Below, piece by piece: positions 1,702 to 10,734 of a stretch of DNA of 12,162 nt. The notes below the pieces were generated by a model that had not been told where the DNA came from, ran no database searches, and saw only the letters and a list, made by a program, of their open reading frames with translations. This DNA is from Coemansia sp. RSA 922. Lineage: Eukaryota > Kickxellomycota > Kickxellomycetes > Kickxellales > Kickxellaceae. Numbering within the stretch: the first letter of the stretch is position 1; each line of letters begins with the position of its first letter. The stretch lies in the NCBI GenBank assembly GCA_027577415.1, contig JANBQS010000778.1:1-12162 (forward strand). The letters run 5' to 3'. A program made the position numbers and the translations under genes.

Positions 1702-2231
1702 TAAAGAAAGAAAATAAGAGTATTAAATGTTGTTTTAGGGGGGTTTTTTTGGATTAGATATACCCAAGGGTTTTGTAATTTTGGTGCGATTTCTAAAGTT
1801 ATTGGGTACCACGTGAGTAGATCGTTGTTGGAATTTTTTTTGTGAAACATGTTACGCATGTCATTGTAGGGTTTTCTTTTTTGTGTGGATACTAACTACA
1901 CAAGTACTCTGACAATGTGTATTAACAAGGTTGAATGGTATCTCTTTATTTATTTTGCAAAGTAAACTGTGAAAAATGTTGCCTGGTCGCTATTTTATGG
2001 CTAAAAAGAGAGCTCTTGAACTGCATAAAAGAAATCGTCTCTTTTGAGAGCGCACAAAGGTCAGCCAAAAGAGCTTGTGCTTGCTGCTTGCTTAAAGAAA
2101 AAAAAGACAAAGCACTCTGGCTTTTTTTTTAACATAAGATGCGCCCACTTTTCTCTCTCTCTCATTTTCTCATTATTTTTTCTATTTCTCTGTCTCTTCA
2201 TCTTTATTATAGGCTTTATTTACTTCTTATC
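1702..2231. promoter_or_regulatory. divergent intergenic region between ELP6 and first F-box-like gene
   Basis: These 530 bases must carry promoters for ELP6 (leftward) and the first F-box-like gene (rightward). Visible items are a CACGTG E-box at 1810-1815, several T-homopolymers, a TATA-like CATAAAA near 2024-2030, and a CAAAGGTCAGCCAA motif at 2055-2068 that recurs upstream of the other two array genes. A long pyrimidine-rich leader (about 2144-2210) lies just before the start codon. I see no convincing protein gene or RNA gene here. Confidence 0.55.
2055..2068 (+). promoter_or_regulatory. shared upstream motif, copy before paralog 1
   Basis: CAAAGGTCAGCCAA, ending about 164 bases before the start codon. 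A closely similar CAAAG, 2-4 bases, GCCAA string occurs upstream of paralogs 2 and 3. It is a candidate transcription-factor site or a relic of promoter duplication. Confidence 0.35.
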
Positions 2232-3890
2232 ATGTCTAACCATGTATCGCCAGCCCAAAGACTTTCCTCTGATTCTGTACGCCTAGTTATTCAATACCTC
2301 ACTAAAGAGACAAGGCAGTCGTCTGGTTCTGTGACATGTAGCATGAGCTTAATACAGGGACTGCTGTCTGTAAGCTCCACGTGGAGACAGGCAACTCTTG
2401 AGTACATGTGGCGAGAGCTTCGCCTAGTTATAAACAAGGACAAAGATGTAGTCTATAATGGGCGACCTAAATGGTTTGACTACGACTGGGTGGCACAAAA
2501 GATAGAGCACCTTGTCATAGAACTCAGTATAAATGTCCCATGGGCCTACCTACTTAATGGCACCGCCTATGAACAACTGTCAGAATACATGAAAAACATG
2601 TCAACCTTGTCTCTTGTGCGCAAGCTTCGAATTAATATTTCTGACCAAGTGGGAAATCCGGATTACACAGTTGAAAGTTCTAGCAACAACGCTATAGAGT
2701 TTGCTCAGTTACTCCGATCATTGACTCCAGAAGTGACATCGGTAGAGGTAAAGTATGAGGAAACAACTTCCAGATTACTCAAGTTTGAAGAGAAAGCATT
2801 GGGTGAATTTCTTAAGTCAGTGTATGATAATGCTCAAAGTACAATGTTGGATACAACGGAGGCCAATTTTAAGCAAACTCATGTTATGGACTGTATCTCT
2901 CAACTGTCGTCTTTGAAATTGTGTTGCACAGACAGATTAGATATATACATGGGTCTAGTTCGCAAGTGTGCTGATACGCTTATACAGCTAGAGATTAAGA
3001 CAGGCTACCCTAAAGCACTGTTTTATGATACTGATAGCAACGTAGTTGTTTACCCAAATTTGATAGATCTGGAGTTGTGCACACATCATCCCATCCTTCC
3101 CGATTACAAAGTATTAATAGAGAACATTGTGCCATTCCCTAGCTTGAAGAAGCTAGTGATTCCAAATGGGTACCCATTTAGCGATGATGTGCTCTTCCGA
3201 GGCAATAGCGACACCCTAGAGCAGCTGCTATTAACCATTATGGGAGACGACTTAACGATGCTAAATATGTATCGGGTATTTGGAAGAAAGTACAAGGTCT
3301 TGCGCATGGTGAGTATTAATGAGACACTTCCTTATCGGGATTTCACTCGTGTACCAGAAACCGAGACAAACAAATTGTTTGGGGATCTGTTATACACTTC
3401 TCGCATATTGAGTATTGGCACCGAGATATTGGCTGCTAGGTTAATATCAGCAGCACAAGTGGGACATGGCTTTAAGTACATTCAAAAGCTTGATGCGCCT
3501 TGGGTCAAGCTATCTCTATTTAACATTCTGAGCTTAGTGAAGGCACTTCCGTCCCTCTTAAAGCTTACATGTGGCATAAATGGACTTGGCTCAGAACTCG
3601 ACCACATTTCTGCAGAAGAATTGCCAGCACATGTTAGCTCTACATATGTCAATTTAGGAAAGAGTTTGTGGAGCTGGTACATACCTTCTTACAGTATTCA
3701 TCGCTATAGAGAAGTAATCAAATGCGTTCTGCTTCTAGCACTTACATGCCCAAAGCTACGTCGAGTAACATTGAAGGAAAGCGATGTCTCCTCTTTTATA
3801 TCTGGAATCGCTGAAGTCCTTGAAAGTGAACCCTATAGCAAATCTGTTCCACTGCTTAGTCACCTTCTTGACGGTATTTATTGTTTGTGA
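2232..3890 (+). CDS. F-box-like protein, tandem paralog 1
   Basis: A 552-residue protein. I place the start at 2232, not at the in-frame ATG at 2139, because MSNHVSPAQ aligns with the starts of the two downstream paralogs; the longer form only adds a hydrophobic translation of the pyrimidine-rich leader. Residues 11-64 fit a divergent F-box: an amphipathic helix (SSDSVRLVIQYL), a spacer longer than usual, then LLSVSSTWRQATLEYMW. The rest carries Leu-rich strand-helix segments suggestive of degenerate leucine-rich repeats, such as YPNLIDLEL at 274-282 and FPSLKKLVI at 302-310. Family motifs are DDVLFRGN at 318-325, SAEELPAHVSSTY at 460-472 and LLLALTCPKLRRV at 500-512. If it is a true F-box protein it would bind Skp1 and recruit substrates to an SCF ubiquitin ligase; this is inference. 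It is the most divergent of the three copies. Confidence 0.75.
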   Translation: MSNHVSPAQRLSSDSVRLVIQYLTKETRQSSGSVTCSMSLIQGLLSVSSTWRQATLEYMWRELRLVINKDKDVVYNGRPKWFDYDWVAQKIEHLVIELSINVPWAYLLNGTAYEQLSEYMKNMSTLSLVRKLRINISDQVGNPDYTVESSSNNAIEFAQLLRSLTPEVTSVEVKYEETTSRLLKFEEKALGEFLKSVYDNAQSTMLDTTEANFKQTHVMDCISQLSSLKLCCTDRLDIYMGLVRKCADTLIQLEIKTGYPKALFYDTDSNVVVYPNLIDLELCTHHPILPDYKVLIENIVPFPSLKKLVIPNGYPFSDDVLFRGNSDTLEQLLLTIMGDDLTMLNMYRVFGRKYKVLRMVSINETLPYRDFTRVPETETNKLFGDLLYTSRILSIGTEILAARLISAAQVGHGFKYIQKLDAPWVKLSLFNILSLVKALPSLLKLTCGINGLGSELDHISAEELPAHVSSTYVNLGKSLWSWYIPSYSIHRYREVIKCVLLLALTCPKLRRVTLKESDVSSFISGIAEVLESEPYSKSVPLLSHLLDGIYCL

Positions 3891-4031
3891 GACTCCTATA
3901 CTTTATGGCAACTACTATTACTGCATTTTTATTTACTTTTTACTGACAGTACATTTGTCCAATACATGCTATAGAAAAATACAATTGCTCTACACTTGGT
4001 AGTATTTGTAGTCCACTAGTAGGTACCGTCA

Positions 4032-4059
4032 TCGCATTGGCAAGCATTGTCTTTGTCTC
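4032..4059 (+). repeat. duplicated promoter block, copy 1
   Basis: This 28-base block is 25/28 identical by eye to 6171-6198, including an exact 20-base core at 4040-4059. It lies about 244 bases before the start of paralog 2. Its position relative to the gene shows that the duplication unit of paralogs 2 and 3 included the upstream region. Confidence 0.7.
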
Positions 4060-4089
4060 CTTTGTAGAGTGATGTTCAAAGACCCAACT

Positions 4090-4102
4090 CAAAGACCGCC
4101 AA
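4090..4102 (+). promoter_or_regulatory. shared upstream motif, first copy before paralog 2
   Basis: CAAAGACCGCCAA; a second version, CAAAGAGGCCAA, follows at 4154-4165. Both match the motif seen before paralogs 1 and 3. Confidence 0.35.
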
Positions 4103-4153
4103 AAACTGGACACCCTCGTCATTGCCTCCTTTGCTCAACCAAAGTCTCATCGC

Positions 4154-4165
4154 CAAAGAGGCCAA
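4154..4165 (+). promoter_or_regulatory. shared upstream motif, second copy before paralog 2
   Basis: CAAAGAGGCCAA, ending about 138 bases before the start codon, nearly the same spacing as the paralog 3 copy (140 bases). Confidence 0.35.
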
Positions 4166-4302
4166 ATAATTGTGCAGCTTTGGGTGAAGGAGCTTTGAGT
4201 AATTTTCCTTCCACCTTTTTTCCTCCATTTACGTCAATCTTTTATTTCTTTACCAAGCTATCCACTTGTTGGTATTTTTTTGACCAGTAATCATTAGCCA
4301 CC

Positions 4303-5982
4303 ATGCACAACCATTTGTCGCCTGCTCAAGCTCTTCCCGTTGATGTTCTACGTTTAATTCTAAAGTGGGTAGTAAAAGAACGGAGGTCGCCGTTTTTTGG
4401 ATATGACAGCCAAGTGGAATGTCTAAAGGAGTTGTTGGCTGTAAGCTCAACTTGGCGACAAGTGGCCCTTGAGTTTCTATGGCATAAACTCAGCCTTACC
4501 ATTGATGCCACGCCTGATAATGTGCGTCTCCATAGTCCAAAGTGGCTAAAAGCTAATATGCTGCCATATAATGCGTCAAATTTGACAAAGGAGATCTGTG
4601 TAAGCGTCTCCCTGCCTGATATTGTTAGCGGAGTTGCTCATAAACTTTTATTCAACTATATTGGAGACACAAAACGTTTTCTATTAGCTTACAAGCTTAC
4701 TGTCCTGATAAGCGACTATAAGAGCCTGAACATTGATGCTACAGACGTTGCCATTACCAATGCTCTAGAGTTTGCTGAGCTACTAAAGTCGATGGCACCA
4801 TCAGCTTTGACAAGAGAGATAGCGTGTTACGAAGGTCTGTCACAATCAATAAATCCCAATGACAACCTTGGCAGCGGCGTGGATGAAGAAGTACTAATCA
4901 TGTTCGCAAATATGCTTTATGGTAACTCGAGGCGAGCAAATTTTGACATATCTGCAGTAGGTGTTGATAAACTATCGACTATCGACTATATTCCGCTGCT
5001 TAATTCCCTAAAGTTAAATTGCGAGAAATCACCCGGTGTTGGTACAAGTCTGGTACACAAGTCTGCCAATATGCTTCAACACTTAAACGTTGGTATACAT
5101 GATGCCAATATGCTAGTGTATGATACAGATGGTGAAGCTGTTCTATACCCAAATTTGCGGCATCTTTGCATATACGGATGTTTCCGTAGTAGTTCTGGTG
5201 CAAAGGAAATGACAACTAAAAACTCACCATTTCCCATGTTAAGAACTTTGACATTGAACACATCTTATCCATTTTATGATGATGTGCTATTCCGAGGCAA
5301 CACTACGACCCTTGAGTATCTGAATTTCAGTTTGGATTATGATACTATTATTATGCTTAATCAAAACCGAGTATTTGAAAGCAAAAACAAGGTCTTGCAG
5401 CATGTAGCTGTCCATAGAGCTGAGAATAGCAACGACCTCTCTCTTGTCTCCAATGCTATTATGAATAAATTTCTTAATAGTTTGGTGGGTAGCGCTAAAA
5501 GATTGACGGTGTCAGCGTCCGAAATATCCAGGGCCTGTATAACAGCGGCGCAACATGGCCAAGTGTTTCAGAACATTAAAGTGATTGTCATAAATTCGGG
5601 CTACCTATCATTATTGGATGTGTTAAGCCTACTGAAAGTATTGCCCGCTCTTTTATATTTTAAAGGTGGAATTAGTAGCTTGGGGCCAGAACTGGAGAAT
5701 ATCTCTGCCGAAGAACTACCCGATTATGTGGCCTCCACCTATTGTGGCGTAGGACGGAATTTGCAGGTTTGGAGAATGATATACTCCAAAAGGCGGGGTG
5801 TTGCCCAAGCTATAGATAACTTATTGCTTCTAGCACTTGCATGTCCTAAGCTCCGTCGGATAGAAACCGTGCCGAATATTTTGACAGATTGTCATACCAG
5901 AGTTGCTGAAGCGCTCTCCAGTGGTCATTATAGCAAGTATGAATATCAGCTCTGCAGAGTGATAAATGCTTTTTGTGCGTAA
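4303..5982 (+). CDS. F-box-like protein, tandem paralog 2
   Basis: A 559-residue protein starting MHNHLSPAQ in a strong GCCACCATG context. The F-box-like helix pair is clearest in this copy: LPVDVLRLILKWV at 11-23 and LLAVSSTWRQVALEFLW at 44-60, with the hallmark Leu-Pro, the VSxxWR core and the terminal LW. Leu-rich segments follow, such as LLNSLKLNC at 232-240, YPNLRHLCIYG at 282-292 and FPMLRTLTL at 310-318, like irregular leucine-rich repeats. Family motifs are DDVLFRGN at 326-333, LGPELENISAEELPDYVAST from 460, and LLLLALACPKLRRIE at 507-521. By eye it is far closer to paralog 3 than to paralog 1. The likely role is a substrate adaptor for a Skp1-Cullin ligase; the substrate is unknown. 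There are no signal peptide, membrane segments or intron. Confidence 0.78.
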   Translation: MHNHLSPAQALPVDVLRLILKWVVKERRSPFFGYDSQVECLKELLAVSSTWRQVALEFLWHKLSLTIDATPDNVRLHSPKWLKANMLPYNASNLTKEICVSVSLPDIVSGVAHKLLFNYIGDTKRFLLAYKLTVLISDYKSLNIDATDVAITNALEFAELLKSMAPSALTREIACYEGLSQSINPNDNLGSGVDEEVLIMFANMLYGNSRRANFDISAVGVDKLSTIDYIPLLNSLKLNCEKSPGVGTSLVHKSANMLQHLNVGIHDANMLVYDTDGEAVLYPNLRHLCIYGCFRSSSGAKEMTTKNSPFPMLRTLTLNTSYPFYDDVLFRGNTTTLEYLNFSLDYDTIIMLNQNRVFESKNKVLQHVAVHRAENSNDLSLVSNAIMNKFLNSLVGSAKRLTVSASEISRACITAAQHGQVFQNIKVIVINSGYLSLLDVLSLLKVLPALLYFKGGISSLGPELENISAEELPDYVASTYCGVGRNLQVWRMIYSKRRGVAQAIDNLLLLALACPKLRRIETVPNILTDCHTRVAEALSSGHYSKYEYQLCRVINAFCA

Positions 5983-6115
5983 GGCAACGTTCAAGCTTTC
6001 TGGATATGACAACTTACACTGCTCTTCGAGTTCAGAAATTGGCATATTTTGTAAATAAGGCTAGTTGGGCGACATCCTACATTATAGAACTACTTTTGAA
6101 TATACACTTTCCTTC

Positions 6116-6121
6116 AATAAA
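6116..6121 (+). terminator. probable polyadenylation signal of paralog 2
   Basis: AATAAA, 134 bases after the stop codon and before the promoter block of the next gene. Confidence 0.4.
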
Positions 6122-6170
6122 CTATTGTAATTGGTCTTTAGCACCGAATAATCATGAACAGTGGCTATTC

Positions 6171-6198
6171 TGCCATTAGCAAGCATTGTCTTTGTCTC
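6171..6198 (+). repeat. duplicated promoter block, copy 2
   Basis: Partner of 4032-4059 (25/28 by eye, exact over 6179-6198). It ends about 190 bases before the start codon, against 244 in the other copy, so about 54 bases of net indel have accumulated between block and gene. Confidence 0.7.
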
Positions 6199-6235
6199 TT
6201 GTCTCTTTTTCTCAGCTTTGACCAAAGTATTCTTT

Positions 6236-6248
6236 CAAAGGCGGCCAA
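6236..6248 (+). promoter_or_regulatory. shared upstream motif, copy before paralog 3
   Basis: CAAAGGCGGCCAA, ending 140 bases before the start codon; same motif as upstream of the other two array genes. Confidence 0.35.
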
Positions 6249-6387
6249 GGAAAATGGACAGAATGGAGAGAAAAGGCTTTGGGGATTCCCTCCTTTCTCT
6301 CTTTTGGTTTACTCTTTTTTGCCCATTTACCTTTTTTAGCAAGCTCTACAACTGTTTGCCTATTTCGACAAGTTAGCACTAGCCATT

Positions 6388-8058
6388 ATGTCCAACAACC
6401 TGTCTCCCGTTCAAACTCTTTCTGTCGATGTTCTACGTTCTATTTTAAAGTGGATAATACTAGAGAAAAGATCGCCATTACATGGGTATAGTTGCCAATT
6501 AGACAACTTAAAAGAATTGTTGACCGTAAGCTCAACTTGGCGACAGGCAGCACTTGGATTTCTGTGGAGAAAGCTTAATATTAATATTAAACCAAATGAA
6601 GTGCAACTAGACCGTCCAATGTGGCTTGCTAAAAATACGCTGCCGGATGATGCCATAAACCTGACTAGGGAGATTTATATAAAAGTTCCCATGTCTGATA
6701 TTGTTAGCGGAATTGCTCGCACACTACTTTTCAACTTTATTGGACATACCAAATGCTTTCCTTTAGCCAACAAGCTTACAATTGAGATGACAGCCTATGA
6801 CAACCAGCGATTTGTCTCCATTGATATTACCATAGCCAATGCTCTAGAGTTTGATAAACTACTCAAATCAATCGCTCCAGCTGCAACGACAATAGAAGTA
6901 GTATTTTTCTGCAGCAAACCACAGACATCAAATGACAACGACAATCCTACCAGACAACTAGATGAAGAGATATTTATGATATTTGCAAATGTGCTTCAAG
7001 CCAGCGCAAAACGCGCAAGTCTTGACTTGCTAGCAGCCAATTTTAAGGACTTATCGACTATGGACTACTCTCCGCTTCTTTCCTCGCTTAGACTCAATTG
7101 TGAGAGGTGGCAAGACGTGGGTGCAAACTTGGTGTGCAAGTCCGCTAGTACACTTCAATGCTTAGACATTGGTTTACATGACGCCAGCATGTTAGTTTAC
7201 GATGTAAATGGTGAGGCTATTAAGTACCCAAATTTGCAGTATCTGTACTTGCATGCACTTGTTCGCAGCTACTCTGGTTTAAAGGTGATATCCTCTAATG
7301 CCACACCATTTCCCCGATTAAGGGGCGTAATACTGTATTCGTCATACCCATTTCATGATGATGTGTTATTCCGAGGTAACAGTGCAACGTTGGAGTATCT
7401 CGATTTCCGTATAAACAGGTATGTGGTAACTATGTTTAATAGATGCAAGACATTTGAGAACAGATGTAAAGTATTGCGGCATGTACTTGTTGGTGAGGAC
7501 AACAACAGTACGAATCTCTCTCTTATCTCAGAGGCTGATATGTGCACATTTATGAGAAACCTAGCAGGAGCTGTTACAAGGTTGAGAGTATCATCATTGA
7601 AAATATCCGAGGCTTGCATAGCAGCGGCACATTATGGACAAGGGTTCAATAGTATCAAAGTGCTTGAATTACGTGCTGACAGTCAATCACTATGTGCTTT
7701 ATTGGGCCTGTTGAGGGTACTTCCAGCCCTAGAAACTATTAGAAGCGGGATTAATGGTTTGGGGCCCGAGCTTGAAAATATATCTGCTGATGGACTTCCG
7801 GATTACGTTGCTTCTACATATCATGAAGCAGGAAAGAACTTACAAGTTTGGAGTATGACCTCCTTTGATAGACAATATACTGTCCAAGTCATGGACTACA
7901 TCTTGCTTCTTGCGCTTGCAAGTCCAAAGCTCCGCCGGATAGAAATCATGCCAAACACTGTTCAAAACTATTATGCCAAAATCTATACAGCGTTGGCGAG
8001 TGGTCCATATAGAAAACATGCCAAGGAACTCAAGAGGCTTCTTAATGCTGCTTACTAG
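6388..8058 (+). CDS. F-box-like protein, tandem paralog 3
   Basis: A 556-residue protein starting MSNNLSPVQ. The F-box-like segment comprises LSVDVLRSILKWI at 11-23 and LLTVSSTWRQAALGFLW at 44-60; the usual Leu-Pro is Leu-Ser here. Leu-rich segments follow: LLSSLRLNC at 230-238, YPNLQYLYL at 280-288 and FPRLRGVIL at 308-316. Family motifs are DDVLFRGN at 324-331, LGPELENISADGLPDYVAST from 458, and ILLLALASPKLRRIE at 505-519. It shares roughly half its residues with paralog 2, estimated by eye along the whole length. The reading frame is intact, so recent pseudogenization is unlikely. The inferred role is a Skp1-binding substrate adaptor. It converges on the small secreted-peptide gene with 217 bases between the stop codons. 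Confidence 0.78.
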   Translation: MSNNLSPVQTLSVDVLRSILKWIILEKRSPLHGYSCQLDNLKELLTVSSTWRQAALGFLWRKLNINIKPNEVQLDRPMWLAKNTLPDDAINLTREIYIKVPMSDIVSGIARTLLFNFIGHTKCFPLANKLTIEMTAYDNQRFVSIDITIANALEFDKLLKSIAPAATTIEVVFFCSKPQTSNDNDNPTRQLDEEIFMIFANVLQASAKRASLDLLAANFKDLSTMDYSPLLSSLRLNCERWQDVGANLVCKSASTLQCLDIGLHDASMLVYDVNGEAIKYPNLQYLYLHALVRSYSGLKVISSNATPFPRLRGVILYSSYPFHDDVLFRGNSATLEYLDFRINRYVVTMFNRCKTFENRCKVLRHVLVGEDNNSTNLSLISEADMCTFMRNLAGAVTRLRVSSLKISEACIAAAHYGQGFNSIKVLELRADSQSLCALLGLLRVLPALETIRSGINGLGPELENISADGLPDYVASTYHEAGKNLQVWSMTSFDRQYTVQVMDYILLLALASPKLRRIEIMPNTVQNYYAKIYTALASGPYRKHAKELKRLLNAAY

Positions 8059-8275: not shown

Positions 8276-8479
8276 CTATGACCGTGGTTCCTTCCAGTTG
8301 CCGACATGGTCAACCTGACGGCGACCAAACTTGTCTTCCCAATCTCCGACATGGTCAACTTGGCGCCGACCTAGTATGTCCTTCCAGTTGCCAACGTGAT
8401 CGACTTGAGGAGCTGGAGCGGGGGTGGCAGTAGCAATGACTGCGAAAACAATAGCAACCAGTGAAAGAGACGCTTTCAT
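8276..8479 (-). CDS. secreted tandem-repeat peptide precursor (Kex2-type, pheromone- or hormone-like)
   Basis: A 67-residue protein. Residues 1-18 form a classic signal peptide (Lys2, hydrophobic core LSLVAIVFAVIA, small residues ATA at 16-18). The TPAPAP stretch (19-24) consists of X-Pro dipeptides, the substrate type of Ste13-like dipeptidyl aminopeptidases. Three tandem units follow with an exact 15-residue period: QVDHVGNWKDILG-RR (25-39), QVDHVGDWEDKFG-RR (40-54) and QVDHVGNWKEPRS (55-67, ending at the stop). Arg-Arg is a Kex2 cleavage site; removal of the basic pair would leave three peptides of 13 residues each, all starting with Gln. This is the architecture of fungal mating-factor precursors, of other Kex2-processed repeat proteins and of some RiPP precursors. 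No Cys is present. The sequence is not one I recognise. A TATA box lies upstream, and the gene is intron-free. Confidence 0.8.
   Translation of the reverse strand: MKASLSLVAIVFAVIATATPAPAPQVDHVGNWKDILGRRQVDHVGDWEDKFGRRQVDHVGNWKEPRS
8279..8407 (-). repeat. three in-frame 45-base peptide-unit repeats
   Basis: Units at 8363-8407, 8318-8362 and 8279-8317 (the last is 39 bases because it ends at the stop codon). The first eight codons of each are nearly invariant in protein (QVDHVG, N or D, W). Several of the differences are synonymous third-base changes (GTC/GTT, CAC/CAT, CGG CGC/CGC CGT), which suggests selection on the peptide rather than very recent copying. Confidence 0.85.
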
Positions 8480-8585
8480 CTTAGATGTAAAGGTAGTAAT
8501 AAAGCAAAGTCGAATAAAGTAAAGGAACAGATGTGTATGTGTTGTTTTGTAGTATTTTGAGATTTACCAGCGGATATCGGGACTT

Positions 8586-8594
8586 CTTTTATAG
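8586..8594 (-). promoter_or_regulatory. TATA box of the peptide-precursor gene
   Basis: Reads CTATAAAAG on the - strand, 106 bases before the start codon. The leader between them is A/C/T-rich with few Gs near the middle (CAAAACAACACATACACATC), a low-structure type common in strongly expressed fungal genes. Confidence 0.55.
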
Positions 8595-9088: not shown

Positions 9089-9207
9089 CTATAGCAGCGT
9101 ATTGCTTGTAAACATCCACAGGCATACAATTGCTGTCACTATTTTCTCAGTATCAAGTATCGCAGATCACTTCTACAAAAAAAAAAAAAGCTACTCCAGC
9201 GTTTTGC
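9089..9207 (+). mobile_element. possible short retroposed insertion with A13 tail and degenerate target repeats
   Basis: CTATAGCAGCGTATTGC (9089-9105) recurs as CTACTCCAGCGTTTTGC (9191-9207), 13 of 17 identical. Between them lie about 71 bases, an A13 run (9177-9189) and one G. A poly-A run ending beside a copy of a flanking repeat is the signature of LINE-mediated insertion. The repeat is short and diverged, so chance similarity cannot be ruled out. Confidence 0.3.
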
Positions 9208-10507
9208 GCTGTCCCACCCTACTGCCTCTTTCTGGTGGCCCATGTCCTTCGGCTATCCACCAAACTAATCGCACCACCGTTCCCATTCTTGTCATTGCAT
9301 ATTTCGCCTGGTCATTCTCAGAAATACAAGAGGCTAAATGCGCTTCGGATCGTTTTACAGGGTCCAAGCCCCACTCTATACACCAAGTCGCCCATCGTTT
9401 CCACACGCAGTTGTAACCGGCATTCGTACCCTTACTCTTGCCGTTAAAGTAGGCTGCAACATCCGATTCAGAATGACCCTGGCGCAAAAGGGCATCTCGG
9501 ATGATATCCTCTCGACCTGGCACCGTCGTTGGTCGCTTATCAAGAACTGGATCAGGTTCGACTATAGTTACCATTGACGAGTCAGCCATCGAGACGTCTC
9601 TCACACTATCTGCGCTTTCTTCGGCTGTACTATCTGAACCAGACACCGTGGCAAGTACAGTATTAGCTGGAGAAGCGACCTCCACACATATGCTAGGATC
9701 TCGGCTACCAACGACGCTTGGGACATGAACAGCCAAGCCGGCGTCAGTAGTAGATTCGTTCACGCGCTCGGTACCTGGGCTATAACTATTACGCGGCTGT
9801 TGAGGCCGATTCCGCTGGGGAGATTCAGGGCGCGAATTACAAGTAAGATATGGATGATTGCGTACATTGGCGCCAGATCCGCTGACTCGCCTTCCCCACC
9901 AACGGGTTGACGGTCGAACAGCTAGTGTGGCGCCCTCTGGCCTCGGCTCCAACTCCTCCTCCGTTTCTCGTGCGCGTCTAACATCGACGCTCTCTCCAGT
10001 CGCTTGTGATAGGCTATCCGCGTGTCGGTCGCGCAGGCTAGCAAGCATATCTTTAAGCGAGACAAACACATCGCCAGCTTGCCTCGCCAGCCTCCTATCG
10101 ACCTGCGGGCTGCCAAGCGCGACGCGTAGAAGCTCCGCTCCGTAGGCAGCCATAGTCGACGCCTGGTTAAACGCATTGCTCGTTTCTCTACGCCCAGCAG
10201 CGGTGGTGGGCTGAGGAGCTAAGCCAGACGGTCTACGTATGTGCTGGCGACGGAGGCTCCTCAAAGTTGGCCGATTTTCCAGTGACTCAACGACGTCATC
10301 ATCCTCGTCGTCGTTACTCTCGCTGTCAAGGTGTATATCGTCGTCACTACTCTCGTGGTCATTGGTCACCCGACTATGGCCAGTGGAGCGATCGGACTGA
10401 ACTTTAATGGCTTGCTCCGCAGCCTCCAGTCGTGTGAGGAACCCTCGCTGGTTTTCCAAGACGTTTTCAATGGTGCTGAGAAGACATTCAAGTTGCTCGC
10501 TCTCCAT
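9191..10507 (-). CDS. tyrosine-recombinase core-binding-like protein, probably truncated transposon ORF
   Basis: A 438-residue protein. I choose the ATG at 10507 (ACCATGG context); an upstream in-frame ATG at 10657 would only translate a T-rich leader. Residues 1-35 are a possible coiled coil, 52-75 strongly acidic (DDD, EDDD), 112-166 a helical Ala/Leu/Arg-rich segment recalling retroelement Gag proteins, and 170-330 low-complexity Ser/Pro/Arg-rich. Residues 336-425 look like the SAM-like core-binding domain of tyrosine recombinases in DIRS or Crypton elements: a helix with GTNAGYNCVWKRWATWC (360-376), GLDPVKRSEAHLASCI, then a final helix. The catalytic Arg-His-Arg-Tyr domain is absent: the frame stops at TAG one base from a T13 run (on this strand). 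It may be a truncated element or a co-opted DNA-binding protein. Codon use is GC-richer than in the F-box array. Confidence 0.5.
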   Translation of the reverse strand: MESEQLECLLSTIENVLENQRGFLTRLEAAEQAIKVQSDRSTGHSRVTNDHESSDDDIHLDSESNDDEDDDVVESLENRPTLRSLRRQHIRRPSGLAPQPTTAAGRRETSNAFNQASTMAAYGAELLRVALGSPQVDRRLARQAGDVFVSLKDMLASLRDRHADSLSQATGESVDVRRARETEEELEPRPEGATLAVRPSTRWWGRRVSGSGANVRNHPYLTCNSRPESPQRNRPQQPRNSYSPGTERVNESTTDAGLAVHVPSVVGSRDPSICVEVASPANTVLATVSGSDSTAEESADSVRDVSMADSSMVTIVEPDPVLDKRPTTVPGREDIIRDALLRQGHSESDVAAYFNGKSKGTNAGYNCVWKRWATWCIEWGLDPVKRSEAHLASCISENDQAKYAMTRMGTVVRLVWWIAEGHGPPERGSRVGQRKTLE

Positions 10508-10734
10508 GGTAAAAAAAAATATATATAAATTGAAAGAGAATAATAGTAAATATAAATAGTAAATATAAAATTCAAAACCTAAAGTTTCGGAAGAAGAAAA
10601 AACCACCTCACACACACAAGCAAGAAGGGATAAAGACGAGAAAGGTCTGCGCCACATCCCTTATATTTCGGTTATGTGAGAAACAAGAGTTGTAAAATTG
10701 AGAAACATATAAAAAAAGATATATGGAAAGGAAT
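10508..10734. promoter_or_regulatory. spacer: ARB1 3' flank and promoter of the recombinase-like gene
   Basis: A 227-base AT-rich spacer between two leftward genes. It includes a perfect tandem repeat of a 13-mer (10544-10569), a long T run on the - strand just before the start codon, and a short CA/TG run near 10609-10618. No canonical AATAAA for ARB1 is seen. Confidence 0.45.
10544..10569. repeat. perfect 13-bp tandem repeat
   Basis: TAGTAAATATAAA occurs twice with no gap, about 40-60 bases upstream of the recombinase-like start codon. On the coding strand it reads TTTATATTTACTA twice, so it could serve as TATA-like sequence. Confidence 0.7.

Follow-up and report, generated by a model that had tools for sequence, protein, structure and literature searches.

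The yeast alpha-factor precursor (MF-alpha1) enters the ER, is cut at dibasic sites and has X-Pro/X-Ala dipeptides beside its product, and alpha-factor itself is a peptide of 13 residues. Ustiloxin-type RiPP precursors, the dikaritins, are likewise secreted repeat precursors cut by Kex2. Precursors with a putative signal peptide and repeats between Kex2 sites received a class name, KEPs, in 2019, and a further survey followed in 2020 (PMC6339444, PMC7329392). By the counts of the second survey, 185 KEPs occur across 16 Zoopagomycota strains and most types are restricted to one genus; its rule asks for at least three tandem repeats between Kex2 sites, each of at least 8 residues and none over 100 (PMC7329392). 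The 2019 pipeline, as described there, looked for at least four fragments after cutting at KR or RR, which is a search threshold and not a definition (PMC6339444). In Coprinopsis cinerea, KEP peptides with N-terminal Gln carry pyroglutamate, also when they are produced in Pichia, and a specific function was found there for none of the KEP peptides examined (PMC9769878).

The window, the whole stretch of 12,162 nucleotides analysed here, corresponds to contig C776 in a Coemansia sp. assembly of 20.4 Mb, and it holds a short gene of this general build (Table 1). The frame fits its interval exactly, as a single exon of 67 codons plus stop, and reads MKASLSLVAIVFAVIATA-TPAPAP-QVDHVGNWKDILG-RR-QVDHVGDWEDKFG-RR-QVDHVGNWKEPRS-stop. 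The original prediction had described a hydrophobic leader, TPAPAP, two RR spacers, a period of 15 and three cores of 13 residues, the third of which runs up to the stop codon; all of this is present in frame exactly as described. It had given no strand, and the gene is now placed on the minus strand. The leader comprises 18 hydrophobic residues ending in A-T-A, after which a signal peptidase would be expected to cut.

Table 1. Features located in the window, with the evidence on which each assignment is based.
Feature	Position	Strand	Basis
Precursor gene, intronless, 67 aa	8276..8479	(-)	sequence; six genomic copies
Putative signal peptide MKASLSLVAIVFAVIATA	8426..8479	(-)	sequence, judged by eye
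TPAPAP, three X-Pro dipeptides	8408..8425	(-)	sequence; leaders of other copies; DPAP-like enzyme in genome
Core 1 QVDHVGNWKDILG	8369..8407	(-)	sequence, unit comparison
RR, Kex2-type site	8363..8368	(-)	sequence, unit comparison; kexin in genome
Core 2 QVDHVGDWEDKFG, penultimate type	8324..8362	(-)	sequence, unit comparison, position test
RR, Kex2-type site	8318..8323	(-)	sequence, unit comparison
Core 3 QVDHVGNWKEPRS, C-terminal type	8279..8317	(-)	sequence, unit comparison, position test
TATAAAAG...TCCGCTG, candidate core promoter element; TATA at -114 from ATG	8568..8593	(-)	six of six copies
ELP6 gene	946-1722	minus	protein comparison

The best match of the precursor to itself has an identity of 0.64 at lag 15 over 28 positions (lags 8-30 scanned, in-phase dibasics required), while 40 Markov-resampled windows reach at most 0.375, with a mean of 0.22. 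At the DNA level the repeat is too diverged for detection by Tandem Repeats Finder at score 40; the repeat is clearer in the peptide than in the DNA. Pfam gives zero matches to the precursor (P0001) even at E 10, and a PDB profile search returned two matches with E values of 0.85 and 0.99, which are not meaningful. Some relatives have sub-threshold Pfam matches (among them ACC_epsilon, and DUF4148, which covers the leader and some of unit 1), which we consider too weak to indicate homology.

The original prediction had called such a precursor undescribed; as a kind it is not, since the KEP class was already in the literature (PMC6339444, PMC7329392), and only the Coemansia family itself appears to be new. 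Judged by its predicted units, the precursor is a KEP under the 2020 rule: there are three units here and four in each of the related copies C561, C90 and C85, the last unit being bounded by the stop codon. The 2019 pipeline would miss the present gene, with its three fragments, and would keep the four-unit paralogues. In common with KEPs, the family has a putative signal peptide, at least three RR-separated repeats of at least 8 residues and, as far as seen, occurrence in one genus; it differs from them in its position-specific tails and in an upstream element common to six copies, both set out below. Since KEPs are known in Zoopagomycota and most types belong to a single genus, a type confined to Coemansia is unsurprising. 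The heptapeptides VDHVGNW and VDHVGDW do not occur in the literature searched, which covers papers and not the supplements of the KEP surveys, where an entry is possible; nor did that literature yield a paper that treats Coemansia together with Kex2.

Seven matches came from a search of the assembly; as two are fragments of a single gene, this makes six copies on six contigs. Sought by exact match at the DNA level, the motif RR-Q-(V/I)-D-(H/N)-V falls at 16 places, all inside these six copies, so that the assembly holds no further copy with such a spacer. The contigs pair as C776/C927, C561/C356 and C90/C85, with flanks about 93% identical over 3.8 to 8 kb; the true count is three loci, each present twice. 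Locus A (C776) and locus B (C561) have diverged flanks in common (about 70%), and locus C (C90/C85) resembles them in the gene region only. With six copies at three loci, the precursor frame is confirmed as real and not a lone chance frame. Four of the six are intact, all four with a hydrophobic N-terminus (by eye).

Other genes are doubled as well: ELP6 and the strongest DPP-IV match are each found twice, and 8 of the 10 S10 matches look paired by score; the kexin P domain has a single match. From the paired precursor loci, ELP6, DPP-IV and most S10 matches, two haplotypes or homoeologues seem to be present in at least part of the assembly; the doubled genes resemble a heterozygous diploid, dikaryon or hybrid state. 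The two ELP6 proteins are 99% identical between contigs. Among 32 ELP6 matches, the best two (83% identical) come from Coemansia sp. RSA 2050 and IMI 209128, and those of Martensiomyces, Linderina and Kickxella are more distant than those of Coemansia. On ELP6, the host most likely belongs to Coemansia (Kickxellales, Zoopagomycota).

Outside the assembly, where relatives were sought at the protein level, a search of a set of 5.8 billion proteins found two more. P0003, from Coemansia sp. RSA 2681, has 65 residues and three units, with RR in both of its spacers. P0002 has 79 residues, a shortened first unit with PR replacing RR (RR in two of three spacers) and a Cys in its last core. A profile search over 1269 candidates gave no additional relative at E 1; either the family is narrow or such small genes are absent from annotations. 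An X-Pro/X-Ala leader before the first Gln, a feature of the original prediction, recurs beyond the present gene: TPAPAP, APAP and AAAP in the other intact copies, TPAPAP and ALAP in P0002 and P0003. The reading as a Kex2-type precursor of several peptides, here in an early-diverging fungus, is supported, with RR and the reading frame preserved in the related copies compared; P0002 has one irregular unit.

Upstream of the gene, a TATAWA lies 89 to 114 bases before the ATG in all six copies, with TCCGCTG 11-13 bases further on. Genome-wide, TATA-N11-13-TCCGCTG gives 10 rows, or 9 distinct sites, six of which belong to family genes; the reversed pattern, as a control, is found at 9 places, so the element is neither rarer nor commoner than chance. 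The evidence for it is thus its presence in six of six copies, which as kin are not independent. Around the remaining three sites (C61, C72 and C294), no KEP-like frame was seen within 700 bases (ATG-started frames of at least 26 residues, by eye). ATGs between the TATA and the start codon occur solely before TCCGCTG, in C927, C561 and C356.

Selection on the units was measured by pooling all pairs of 18 units from five copies, C356 being left out; the pairs are not independent. At core positions 1-8, pS is 0.829 and pN 0.039, a difference of about 20-fold between silent and replacement change, while at positions 9-13 the values are 0.827 and 0.343. The RR codons have a pS of 0.395 and a pN of 0. 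RR is present in 13/13 of the spacers compared at period 15, each directly followed by Gln, and Gln starts all 18 units, in line with the original prediction that every peptide would open with this residue. By these counts, selection maintains both the QVDHV(G)xW head and the sites of cleavage, and the tails vary. Between homologous contigs, dS and dN are 0.267 and 0.011 for C90/C85; the constraint is weaker for C776/C927 (0.171 and 0.052), which agrees with a nonsense codon in C927.

That codon lies within the third core and leaves two full cores; in C356, a 38-base deletion between leader and first core shifts the frame. The original prediction had named decay of the repeats as a sign against itself, and these two copies of six do show it, although the family overall is not decaying. 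That the frame is instead a non-coding or decaying repeat which yields nothing, as such lesions might suggest, is hardly credible given the strong excess of silent over replacement change, the upstream element common to the copies and the relatives in other sources.

The cores differ by position in a regular way. C776, C561, C90 and P0003 all have QVDHVGDWEDKFG as their penultimate core; their last cores end in KEPRS, KEPRP, KETHP and EEPRP, and their first cores in KDILG, KDTHA, KDTHA and EDTHG. Across genes, cores at one position agree at 11.1 of 13 residues, against 8.5 of 13 between positions inside a single gene; this comparison omits C927, C356 and C85 as homologous contigs, P0002 because its units are irregularly spaced, and one extra internal unit each from C561 and C90. 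As high a value comes from 6 of 1296 labellings, and 6 is also the number of equivalent relabellings. By this measure the four genes compared have position-specific cores (first, penultimate, last), and because these match better by position across genes than within a gene, the array has not been homogenised. For most units the same comparison leads us to reject an origin of the repeats in recent tandem duplication; units 2 and 3 of C561, which are identical in protein, may have been duplicated later. At least three kinds of peptide thus appear to be conserved together, and what the gene seems to produce is a defined mixture.

The genome encodes enzymes of the kinds that the original prediction had implied. 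A kexin (C151) with S8 and P domains scores 487 bits to yeast kexin and has a hydrophobic segment towards its C-terminus; a Kex1-like S10 enzyme (C159), with 230 bits to KEX1 against 154 bits to carboxypeptidase Y, has one after the catalytic domain, near the C-terminus; and a DPP-IV/DPAP-like protein (C681) has one near its N-terminus, with a second DPP-IV/DPAP-like frame on C204. Because kexin-, Kex1- and DPAP-type enzymes are widespread across fungi, these genes allow a processing scheme and do not prove it. The set is of the kind that serves yeast alpha-factor, according to the 2019 description (PMC6339444).

We infer the following scheme of secretion and processing, including the order of its steps. 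The precursor chain would enter the ER, the kexin would cleave after every Arg-Arg and the Kex1-like carboxypeptidase would trim the Arg pair. TPAPAP is the predicted substrate of the DPAP/Ste13-like peptidase, which would remove TP-AP-AP from the first product, leaving Gln at the start of all peptides. The N-terminal Gln would then likely turn into pyroglutamate, which is plausible given the modification of Gln-starting KEP peptides reported from Coprinopsis and from Pichia (PMC9769878); the Coprinopsis peptides, of another phylum and with other cores, resemble these in their N-terminal Gln, but were seen by mass spectrometry, whereas the Coemansia peptides are predicted only. Gly precedes RR in 10/13 spacers and Ala in 3/13, so removal of the Arg pair would leave one or the other at the peptide end. 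The Gly is suggestive of C-terminal amidation, which we rate as unlikely given the Ala in the other three spacers; neither domain of an amidating monooxygenase was found in the genome, in a search whose controls were silent too. The product would be a defined mixture of acidic to near-neutral peptides of about 13 residues, in which a common QVDHV(G)xW head is joined to three tails, each specific to a position. The computed [M+H]+ values are 1480.754, 1531.681 and 1551.766 for the unmodified peptides and 1463.728, 1514.655 and 1534.740 with pyroglutamate. Taken as a whole, a KEP-type secreted precursor with Kex2-type processing in this Coemansia is a reading we hold with considerable confidence.

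On the plus strand of the window lie three tandem paralogues of about 570 residues each (2133-3890, 4291-5982 and 6340-8058), the second 52% and the first 34% identical to the third; none is matched in Pfam at E 0.001, and we take them, as an impression, to have an F-box-like start and a leucine-rich body. Upstream of the precursor gene, an open frame of 489 residues on the minus strand (9191-10660) has no match in Pfam or PDB; part of it resembles, by eye, recombinases of the DIRS/Crypton type, and a diverged copy of one stretch (9245-9528) also lies upstream of the locus B gene. At locus C (C90, around 1782-6984), the precursor has an AA9 polysaccharide monooxygenase-like gene on one side and ChaC-like and acyltransferase-like genes on the other, and given the latter two a modified product is possible.

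What the peptides do is best approached through their chemistry. The 11 cores computed have net charges of -4.1 to -0.15 at pH 7 and GRAVY values of -0.47 to -1.67, that is, they are hydrophilic, and have neither Tyr nor Cys (the Cys-bearing last core of P0002 is outside the 11). Acidic to near-neutral, hydrophilic and free of Tyr and Cys, they argue against a membrane-active or ustiloxin-like product and make a linear signal likeliest. A conspecific signal outside the cell would be the likeliest role, a view to which we give about an even chance.

Secreted antagonists or antimicrobials, possibly modified in the manner of ustiloxin-type RiPPs, would fit with the toxins that some fungal KEPs yield by the account of the 2020 survey (PMC7329392), and the acyltransferase-like and ChaC-like neighbours at locus C could be modifying enzymes. 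Against this, the cores computed are unlike cationic membrane-active peptides, they differ from dikaritins in having no Tyr, and UstYa (DUF3328) is unmatched both in the genome, searched without a positive control, and in the neighbouring frames scanned (of the flanking frames of at least 150 residues, two of three in L033, four of seven in L034 on C90 and none in L032, L035 and L036); we consider such a role improbable. Still less can be said for a structural or surface role like that of the Ustilago Rep1 repellents: Rep1 is a repeat protein cut by Kex2 in the same survey (PMC7329392), but the cores computed are short as well as hydrophilic, and we regard this as very unlikely.

The conspecific signal we prefer could take the particular form of a sexual pheromone of Kickxellomycotina, alpha-factor-like and perceived via a GPCR. 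The likeness to alpha-factor processing drawn in the original prediction stands for the general design (ER entry, dibasic cuts, an X-Pro leader and 13-residue products, with Kex2-, Kex1- and DPAP-like genes in the genome), and by analogy of build the gene is a candidate alpha-factor-type precursor. It does not extend further: the Coemansia precursor, unlike MF-alpha1, is without a long pro-region, and its X-Pro/X-Ala dipeptides stand before the first unit only, with none after each RR, where yeast alpha-factor has them. Moreover, every locus is found on both homologous contigs, and neither STE2 nor STE3 is matched in the genome, a weak negative from a search without a positive control. The 2019 description has the pheromones of early-diverging fungi as largely unknown except in Mucoromycotina and Blastocladiomycota (PMC6339444), and a 2023 review, which also mentions low-coverage genomes for more than 100 Kickxellales isolates, calls the mating genetics of Zoopagomycota still poorly understood (PMC10386755). 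On balance, we think a pheromone unlikely. The boldest form of the proposal, which we put forward as speculation and rather doubt, is that this three-locus family secretes a fixed mix of pyroglutamyl 13-mers, with one recognition head, three position-specific tails and an upstream element in common, and that Kickxellomycotina would thereby have its first known peptide pheromone or self-signal, perceived by a receptor that is neither STE2 nor STE3.

For the surveys, the family means that three-unit KEPs can slip below the threshold applied, and their short length perhaps also evades gene callers. As a KEP family it has core versions that are conserved by position, and the mixture itself may be the message. 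Mate finding and mutual sensing in fungi such as Coemansia are poorly known, and for these the family supplies concrete peptide sequences and masses.
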